Source: an uncultured Anaeromyxobacter sp.
GTDB lineage: Bacteria > Myxococcota > Myxococcia > Myxococcales > Anaeromyxobacteraceae
Direction of reading: 5' to 3'
Length of the DNA: 64,000 nt
Assembly (NCBI GenBank): GCA_903855945.1
Contig: CAIOAK010000015.1
Coordinates: 124,001 to 188,000 of the forward strand
Shown: piece after piece, positions 51,806 to 53,275 of the stretch
How the letters are laid out: every line of letters starts with the position of its first letter
Numbering within the stretch: the first letter of the stretch is position 1
Program-made: the position numbers and the translations under genes
Notes under the pieces: generated by a model
Databases searched by the model: none
Told to the model about the DNA's origin: nothing
What the model saw: only the letters and a program-made list of their open reading frames with translations

Positions 51806-52054
51806 ATGGGTCGCAGGCTGGTCCCGATCCTGGTGGGCTTCGGGCCGGCGCTCGCGTGGACGGTTGGGATGACGCTCCGCTGGCGAGGCTGGCTGGGTCC
51901 GGGAAGGGCGCTGGCGCTCGCGGCCTTCACGGGGCTGGGGGTGCTGGGGCTGTCGGCGCTCGTGCTCGCGTTTCTGCCGTCGTTCCTGGAGGTGGCGGGG
52001 ATGGGGAGGGCGGCGGCGTGGTTGAGGAGGTACTGGGACGAGGAGGCGAGGTAG
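51806..52054 (+). CDS. small two-helix membrane protein, function unknown
   Basis: 82 aa. Two hydrophobic helices: about 5-23 (LVPILVGFGPALAWTVGMTL) and about 35-58 (LALAAFTGLGVLGLSALVLAFL), with Arg-rich ends and an acidic C-terminus RRYWDEEAR. No family recognised. It follows dnaB after 8 bp and precedes the GGAACC array by 2 bp. Ribosome-binding site is poor. Codon bias fits a real gene of the host. Confidence 0.55.
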   Translation: MGRRLVPILVGFGPALAWTVGMTLRWRGWLGPGRALALAAFTGLGVLGLSALVLAFLPSFLEVAGMGRAAAWLRRYWDEEAR

Positions 52055-52056
52055 GG

Positions 52057-52110
52057 GGAACCGGAACCGGAACCGGAACCGGAACCGGAACCGGAACCGG
52101 AACCGGAACC
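52057..52110. repeat. nine tandem copies of GGAACC
   Basis: A perfect hexanucleotide array of nine units (52057-52110), followed by one changed unit GGGTCC (52111-52116). It lies between the small membrane protein stop (52054) and the large hairpin. Units of six would not shift a reading frame, but the array is outside any gene. Copy number probably varies between strains. Confidence 0.9.
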
Positions 52111-52142
52111 GGGTCCGCGCTCGCGTCCACGGCATCGCGAGC

Positions 52143-52199
52143 CGGCTCCTTTGGGGGTGGGGCTGCCCCTGGGGTGAAGCCCCACCCCCAAAGGAGCCG
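52143..52199 (+). promoter_or_regulatory. 22-bp perfect inverted repeat covering the next gene's ribosome-binding site
   Basis: Arms 52143-52164 and 52178-52199, loop 13 nt (itself partly self-complementary). The right arm contains AAAGGAG at 52190-52196, the only Shine-Dalgarno of the gene at 52203. In RNA that begins before the left arm, this site would be locked in the stem. It may also act as a terminator for dnaB. Confidence 0.72.
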
Positions 52200-52202
52200 C
52201 AA

Positions 52203-52559
52203 ATGTCATTTCACGCATTGGAAGTGTCGATTGAACTCATCCAATCGCTCCGGGAGCCGCTCGGGAGTCTCGAGCGCCGAGATCCGGACCTTGCGAGGCA
52301 GATACGACGGGCGGCTGCTTCGGTGCCGCTCAACGTGAGCGAGGGCCGGCGGCGAAACGGGAAGGACCGGATCCACCTGTGGCGGGTGGCGGCGGGCAGC
52401 GCGAACGAGCTGGCGGCCGGACTGCGAGTCGCGGATGCGTTTGGGTACGTTTCAGCGGAAGCAGTCGAGCCGTCGCTTCTGCTGTGCGACCGCGTGCTCG
52501 CCATGCTCTGGCGGATGACGAGTCAGCCGGCGGCGGCGCGGGCCGCGGAGTCCAGGTAG
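52203..52559 (+). CDS. four-helix-bundle protein (23S rRNA intervening-sequence protein family)
   Basis: 118 aa. The family core is clear: LIQSLREPLGSLERRDPDLARQIRRAAASVPLNVSEGRRR (the helix-loop with SVPLNVSEG is diagnostic), then WRVAAGSANELAAGLRVADAFGYVSAE. The protein should form a small helical bundle that oligomerises, as in intervening-sequence proteins and Avd of diversity-generating retroelements. The first 60 bp are only about 45% GC, unlike the surroundings, suggesting acquisition. The last 12 codons run into the thiD 3' end on the other strand (37-bp overlap). No reverse transcriptase is present, so it is not an Avd locus. Confidence 0.82.
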   Translation: MSFHALEVSIELIQSLREPLGSLERRDPDLARQIRRAAASVPLNVSEGRRRNGKDRIHLWRVAAGSANELAAGLRVADAFGYVSAEAVEPSLLLCDRVLAMLWRMTSQPAAARAAESR

Positions 52560-53275
52560 CGCTCCACGAGCCGCTTCGCCCGGCGCACGGACTCCTCGAG
52601 GTCCAGGCCGCGGGCCAGGAAGCCGGCCGTCGCCGAGGCGAGCCGGCAGCCGGTCCCCCGGGCGGTGCCGGGGCGGCGGCGGCCGCGGATCCGGATCACG
52701 CTGCGGCCGCGCACGAGCAGGTCGACGGGGGCCCCCTCGCGATGGCCACCCTTCACCAGCACGGCGCGGGCGGGCAGCTCCCGGGCGGCGCGGACCGCCT
52801 CCTCCTCCGAGCCGAGCGACCAGCCGGAGAGCGCCTCCAGCTCGGGCCAGTTGGGCGTGGCGAGCGCGGCGCGAGCGAGGAGCGCGTCGAGGGCCCGGCG
52901 CGCGCCGGAGGCATCGAGGAGCGGGAGGCCGGAGGAGGCCGCCAGCACGGGATCAACTACGAGTGAAATGCGGGCGAGCGGCCGCCGGGAGAGCCGCTCC
53001 GCGAGCGCGGCCGCGTTGGCTCCGCTCCCCAGCATGCCGGTCTTCACGGCGCGCGGGAGCTCCCGGGACCCGTCGAGGAGCGCGTCCACCTGGGCGAGGA
53101 GCATCGCCGGCCGGGCCGGCTCCATCGCCCGGGCGCCGCGGGGACCCTGCGCGGTGAGCGCGGTGGCCACCGCCCAGCCCCGCGCCCCGGCGGCGGCGAG
53201 CGCCTCCAGGTCGGCGAGCAGCCCGGCGCCGCCGGTCGGGTCGAGCCCGGCGCAGACGAGGACCAGTGGCTTCAC
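52523..53275 (-). CDS. thiD: hydroxymethylpyrimidine/phosphomethylpyrimidine kinase
   Basis: Phosphorylates HMP and HMP-P for thiamine synthesis. 250 aa from GTG 53275. Ribokinase-like motifs: LVCAGLDPTGGAGLLADLEA at the N-terminus, VVDPVLAASSGLPLLD, ATPNWPELEALSGW, VLVKGGHREG and the anion-hole region RPGTARGTGCRLASATAGFLARG (GTGC with the general-base Asp replaced by Arg/Leu context). In canonical ThiD the segment reads GTGCTxSAA; here it is GTGCRLASA, still close. It is coupled (GTGA) to the amidotransferase upstream. Confidence 0.88.
   Translation of the reverse strand: MKPLVLVCAGLDPTGGAGLLADLEALAAAGARGWAVATALTAQGPRGARAMEPARPAMLLAQVDALLDGSRELPRAVKTGMLGSGANAAALAERLSRRPLARISLVVDPVLAASSGLPLLDASGARRALDALLARAALATPNWPELEALSGWSLGSEEEAVRAARELPARAVLVKGGHREGAPVDLLVRGRSVIRIRGRRRPGTARGTGCRLASATAGFLARGLDLEESVRRAKRLVERYLDSAARAAAG

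Follow-up and report, generated by a model that had tools for sequence, protein, structure and literature searches.

A small, probably mobile interspersed element with a start-region hairpin and an IVP/S23-family gene in Anaeromyxobacter and related bacteria

The window, a 64-kb stretch of the genome of an uncultured Anaeromyxobacter (G000:C15:124001-188000), contains a compact block of 465 bp at positions 52057-52521 of the forward strand, in which a hexanucleotide array, a hairpin and a four-helix-bundle gene follow one another in that order. The left neighbor is an open reading frame (ORF) located downstream of dnaB and ending in a TAG stop codon at 52052-52054, and the right neighbor is thiD on the minus strand (52523-53275, stop codon at 52523-52525). 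The block is not in an rRNA gene and an Rfam search of the window returned no rRNA match. The terminal array (52057-52112) consists of 9.3 copies of GGAACC with 100% matches, in agreement with the nine perfect copies counted in an earlier note on this DNA, and is the only hexanucleotide array of at least 30 bp in the window, as well as the sole such locus in the genome. The perfect 22-bp inverted repeat described in the same note was also recovered, with arms at 52143-52164 and 52178-52199 that make up a start-region hairpin (52143-52199), a short form lacking the palindromic core of the G003 and G009 copies; when the repeat is extended, it measures 27 nt and is 93% complementary. No other perfect inverted repeat with arms of at least 14 bp and a loop of at most 60 occurs in the window, ten Markov-1 shuffles yielded none, and the RNA fold of the region has a z of -6.1. 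The right arm holds the Shine-Dalgarno sequence (SD; AAAGGAG, 52190-52196), which by direct reading is, as had been claimed, the only one for the four-helix-bundle gene, with its ATG at 52203 and no earlier in-frame start. An ordinary terminator was rejected, as there is no T-run after the stem and the stem is absent from the empty site described below.

The element-encoded part of the gene amounts to about 106 codons (52203-52521, forward strand). Profile matches to PF05635 (E = 3e-15; 56.7 bits against a curated Pfam cut-off of 33.8) and TIGR02436 (E = 3e-16; 59.4 bits against 24 in NCBIfam), along with an AlphaFold model of four helices (pLDDT 89.4), place the product in the IVP/S23 family and bear out the four-helix bundle proposed earlier. 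Among solved structures, 2RLD and 2GSC come closest, followed by 4DWL (TM about 0.7-0.8), the structure of Avd, an accessory protein of diversity-generating retroelements (DGRs), and the fold is also similar to the DGR reverse transcriptase complex 8UB7; by both sequence and fold, the protein is closer to S23/IVP than to Avd. The low GC content noted for the 5' part of the gene holds, with 60% GC over the first 120 nt and a GC3 of 0.76 versus 0.92-0.95 in the neighboring genes. The reading frame does run into thiD, with an overlap of 37 nt, and its last 12 codons are host sequence. The tail (SQPAAARAAESR and the stop codon; 52522-52559, forward strand) lies in the flank, where it is antisense to the last part of thiD, and matches the flank of the empty site, and other full-length congeneric copies terminate in ...RLTH or ...RLTR plus a stop codon, without this tail. 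The right boundary, previously placed at 52559, was revised to 52521, the codons beyond it representing read-through into the flank because this copy is without a stop of its own. The window copy is shortened, with no core motif, no right-hand end motif and no right arm enclosing the gene.

DNA flanking the block was searched against related genomes, including the congeneric G001 and G003, and the block was found to be a precise insertion between convergent gene ends. The flanks are 713 bp apart in G001 compared to 1185 bp in G000, and the stop codons of the two convergent genes, with 465 bp between them in G000, are only 4 bp apart at the empty orthologous site in G001 (C112), which reads GGTAGGGG/TCAGCC and lacks the array. 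Alignment of the empty junction (GGTAGGGGTCAGCCG) with the filled junctions (GGTAGGGGGAACC...GATGACGAGTCAGCCG) therefore delimits the element as 52057-52521, with a boundary uncertain by 1-2 bp. There was no visible target-site duplication of more than a single nucleotide where the block is inserted and no clear duplication overall, and the PF05635 gene is the only gene inside the unit, with no transposase, recombinase or reverse transcriptase; a transposon or insertion sequence was rejected based on the missing transposase and the missing duplication. Empty sites were also seen in G000 (loci dapF, smc, C19/C12 and C263) and in G009 (smc), and none of those displayed has a tandem array; a copy on C85 of G039 likewise has an empty counterpart in three relatives. 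Separately, the left flank in the window (52052-52054) and in other copies often reads GTAG, a TAG stop preceded by G, which may be due to chance; GTAG is also the tetranucleotide that marks REP elements.

There are five copies of the gene in G001, five in G003 and one close copy in G009, and copy number is low among genomes with the element (1-16 per genome). Every copy with readable surroundings possesses the array, the hairpin and the gene, and the order is the same as in the window nearly everywhere, the exception being the G009 copy, in which the array is on the downstream side. Insertion, dispersal in many copies and the joint travel of the parts are shown by the sequences, and the small transferable unit suggested by the earlier note is upheld by the empty sites, the dispersed copies, the precise insertion and the linkage of the three parts, such that a mobile, co-travelling unit is very probable. 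The right hairpin arm of the copies reads ...CCCCACCC-AAAGGAGCCGC, followed by the ATG and the gene, while the array unit varies by locus (GACTCC, ACCGCA/ACCGCAG, GACCGT-type, TTCCGCAACCGC and GGAGTC). The left side is missing in part from two copies, one beginning within the hairpin at a contig end (L047) and one decayed (L048); in the latter (1578-1724 on the minus strand, G001:C109) the left hairpin arm is deleted and the gene has two in-frame deletions, showing that copies do degenerate. A hairpin and gene found apart, which the earlier note had named in advance as evidence against a unit, occurred in one apparent case, a hairpin without the gene (L078) and a gene without the hairpin (L046) in G001, and these are the halves of a single copy. 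An IS66-type insertion is located exactly at its start codon, with an 8-bp duplication (GCAGATGG), and splits the copy across G001:C19 and C12 (L078 1801-1870 and L046 1-240); the arrays flanking this locus are complementary to each other. Canonical IVP genes outside such units are without the hairpin, as expected.

Sampled genome stretches were used to estimate the background density of arrays, and no intergenic hexamer array away from an element was found in about 290 kb of G001 and G003. As arrays are missing from both this sampled background and the displayed empty sites, the array arrives with the element in Anaeromyxobacter, and the possibility of the array as a pre-existing target was rejected for this genus, where comparable empty sites are without one. 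In G011, long hexamer arrays of the GACCNC type also occur without a four-helix gene (L097 5636-5781 and 7725-7860, L099 3879-4084, L105 18532-18747), and some of these adjoin a shared sequence, TCATTCATCACATC(G/C)..., suggestive of another array-carrying repeat family.

Between G001 and G003, copies that occupy the same locus share only about 70% identity. Copies group by genome, not by locus, either through gene conversion among them or because insertion recurred at favored sites; concerted evolution or repeated insertion thus complicates the history of the element. The smc copy has opposite orientations in G001 and G003 (L044, L045, L047 and L146), and G003 has swapped the flanks of its smc and C263 loci, which would fit recombination between copies, though this exchange is provisional because the genomes were assembled from metagenomes and have arrays at the ends of contigs, where an assembly join across an array is possible. 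Further, two G003 contigs (C268 and C151; end of L145, start of L144) finish in tandem arrays of about 12-13 bp with differing units, and the gap between them corresponds to a locus holding the element in G001, such that a further copy may be hidden there.

The hairpin over the translation start is the most regular trait of the group. A perfect stem of at least 10 bp that covers the SD or start with its 3' arm is present in 38 of 62 distinct four-helix genes of the group, compared to five of 149 control genes with strong SDs, and the mean unpaired probability of positions -18 to +3 is 0.27 in the group versus 0.34 in the controls (p about 1e-5). For the window copy this value is 0.07, with its ATG just outside of the stem. 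The arms have many different sequences, so the hairpin is conserved as a structure and not as a sequence. One lineage (L065, L066 and L070) is an exception, with a stem that ends before the SD and leaves it free; the canonical IVP genes in the genome of L065 possess neither the hairpin nor the end motif (see below). The transposases of IS10, IS50 and IS200 are subject to fold-back control, in which an inverted repeat closes the SD and start in read-through transcripts. The element is similar in that an upstream arm closes the SD and start, at the level of predicted structure, and dissimilar in that the gene controlled is not a transposase. Elements often stand directly behind host stop codons, so a read-through mRNA would always carry both arms. 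The proposal that the gene gates its own translation is consistent with these data, since most members have the SD, and usually the start codon, within a perfect stem, though the lineage with the free SD is an exception; the chances that the hairpin is conserved because of control over the translation start seem to us about even.

The earlier note had called for a search of relatives for the pair of hairpin and gene, and the pair turned up far outside of the genus. Four-helix genes in other families of the order are likewise preceded by simple arrays and have a start-region hairpin, and in addition an imperfect palindrome lies 130-170 nt ahead of the ATG, with the consensus GCAGGC-CGCGCCA-stem-TGTCAC-GCCTGC. 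This end motif has two conserved mismatches and often occurs as an inverted pair on either side of one or two genes. Among 40 distinct sequences, 94.9% of cells are paired with 73 two-sided changes, and the covariation score is 0.420 versus 0.110 when shuffled (0/500), showing that the structure is maintained by compensatory change. Just one of about 431 paired cells is a G-U pair, a scarcity more in keeping with a DNA hairpin than with a purely RNA one, though the high GC content explains part of this. A covariance model of the end motif (R2) had matches in nine of 146 relatives and eight of 195 genomes of the phylum, and a four-helix gene was near 28 of the 30 retrieved loci (one of the 28 being a very weak match at a contig end); the two loci without a nearby gene were at a contig end (L174) and a marginal match (L157). 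Neither the window nor 400 kb of G011 gave an R2 match. Copies in G003 and G009 hold a longer version of the core within the start hairpin, a core that is lost in the G000 and G001 copies. No Rfam family fits the start hairpin or the end motif under gathering and E-value thresholds. At L051-L054 (G004 and G011), the two members of a tail-to-tail pair of different four-helix genes each have an array, a motif and a start hairpin of their own, an arrangement that recurs at several G011 loci.

To our knowledge, IVP/S23 proteins have had no known function since their discovery in rRNA intervening sequences. The dN/dS between most copies is about 0.12-0.3; the protein is under purifying selection and therefore does something for the element or the host. 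Its binding to the hairpins is predicted from their fixed linkage and from the relative Avd, an essential DGR component (PMC10053308), and by this analogy a protein that acts on the hairpins of the element is a tentative proposal.

Several known systems share part of this layout. As in REP, BIME and REPIN sequences, the palindromes are imperfect, have two conserved mismatches and often come as inverted pairs, and the element is non-autonomous and intergenic, adjoining the 3' ends of convergent genes (PMC3733652, PMC8266576, PMC3116915), with the palindromes found in the full-length relatives and only the start hairpin retained in the window copy. The ends could thus be DNA hairpins processed in trans by a Y1 transposase (RAYT/TnpA_REP), with the four-helix gene as a passenger, a reading that fits the near-absence of G-U pairs, the insertion next to convergent stop codons and the abundance of Y1 matches in carriers (21 in G051, 20 in G057 and 13 each in G039 and G059). 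We consider it unlikely, as the end motif is missing at 20 sampled Y1/RAYT loci, G029 and G000 carry the element but have no Y1_Tnp match, and the Y1-rich G047 is without an R2 match. Unlike REP sequences, the element also has tandem arrays at the outer end, a low copy number and a conserved protein gene, and the purifying selection on that gene means that it is more than a passenger. The classic setting of IVP genes is an rRNA intervening sequence that has stems at its borders and is cut out by RNase III (PMC4990558), and the element shares with those of the 23S rRNA in Leptospira and Coxiella the protein family (PF05635/TIGR02436), a stem-loop beside the ORF and the sporadic distribution of a small, selfish-looking insertion (PMC4990558). 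A comparable RNA element, in which RNase III would cut the start stem (and, where both ends are present, the complementary arrays or end motifs) and separate the host and four-helix mRNAs, possibly freeing the SD, with spread by RNA or by recombination, draws on this classic setting, on a 22-bp stem long enough for RNase III and on the complementary arrays at G001 C19/C12. It is nonetheless improbable given that the unit is outside of rRNA genes, with no Rfam match, that most carriers lack a reverse transcriptase and that in the window copy the gene is not enclosed by a right arm, though some other copies do have complementary ends. An rRNA intervening sequence proper was rejected on location, the element being in intergenic DNA between protein genes, and it further differs in a hairpin that precedes the ORF over the SD instead of enclosing it, in its tandem arrays and many dispersed copies per genome, and in the conserved end motif of full-length members.

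The kinship to intervening sequences and retroelements proposed in the earlier note therefore stands for sequence and fold and fails for the rRNA setting and, in most carriers, for the reverse transcriptase. The same absence weighs on the idea that the protein is a DGR accessory (Avd) that cooperates in trans with a reverse transcriptase, an idea favored by the shared four-helix fold and the similarity to 4DWL and 8UB7. No template or variable repeat was noticed. As there is no RVT_1 match in most carriers tested (including G001, G003, G009, G039, G051 and G059), no linked reverse transcriptase (the single match in G000 is on another contig) and a closer relationship of the protein to S23/IVP, this reading is very improbable and, with reverse transcriptases absent from multi-copy carriers, largely refuted; a DGR or retroelement satellite in the simple sense is excluded because most carriers are without the enzyme. 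The position between convergent genes could also suggest an ordinary host locus, in which a bidirectional hairpin at a convergent junction, an unrelated small gene and a chance repeat happen to coincide, but this is hardly credible and was refuted by the block being absent from the orthologous site and present at many loci and in other families, and the stem has no T-run after it.

Taken together, we favor, with a probability of about 0.6, the reading of 52057-52521 as a small interspersed mobile element composed of an array, a hairpin and an IVP/S23 gene that is REPIN-like, hairpin-gated and mobilized in trans. In order, the layout consists of an outer tandem array that is short and specific to its locus, in full-length members the imperfect-palindrome end motif, often repeated in inverted form at the other end, then a long start-spanning hairpin and one IVP/S23-family gene. 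In a read-through mRNA from the host gene ahead, the hairpin may keep the SD and start codon closed, in the manner of the fold-back control of IS10 and IS200 transposases, such that the protein would be made only once the stem is opened by cleavage, by a bound protein or in an unusual transcript. The protein would act on the hairpins of the element itself, and an enzyme from the host or from another element could move the unit via a hairpin (single-strand) intermediate, as in REP and REPIN sequences. A single-strand DNA route by an enzyme acting in trans is rather doubtful, and family searches for reverse transcriptases and Y1/RAYT, along with a search for the motif at Y1 loci, supported mobilization by neither and did not find a mobilizing enzyme. 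As the ends and location are REPIN-like and a link to Y1 is lacking, the element is therefore grouped with small IVP-coding selfish elements, working like a gene-bearing REPIN. A literature search, with most subscription papers outside of its reach, found no description of such elements.

A bolder and rather doubtful extension is that these elements form an undescribed class of mobile element without a recombinase, in which an IVP/Avd-like four-helix-bundle oligomer recognizes the hairpins of the element and, together with a host enzyme, drives the spread of the element, leaving locus-specific short tandem arrays at its ends. If true, rRNA intervening sequences and the Avd proteins of DGRs would be specialized relatives of a general hairpin-binding mobility factor. 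The element raises the questions of how a unit can spread without a transposase and why every insertion comes with a short tandem array of its own. With the same fold present as the only gene of a dispersed element, the binding and role of IVP/S23 proteins become directly testable outside of rRNA, and the conserved hairpins at fixed positions and the clean empty sites support such tests.
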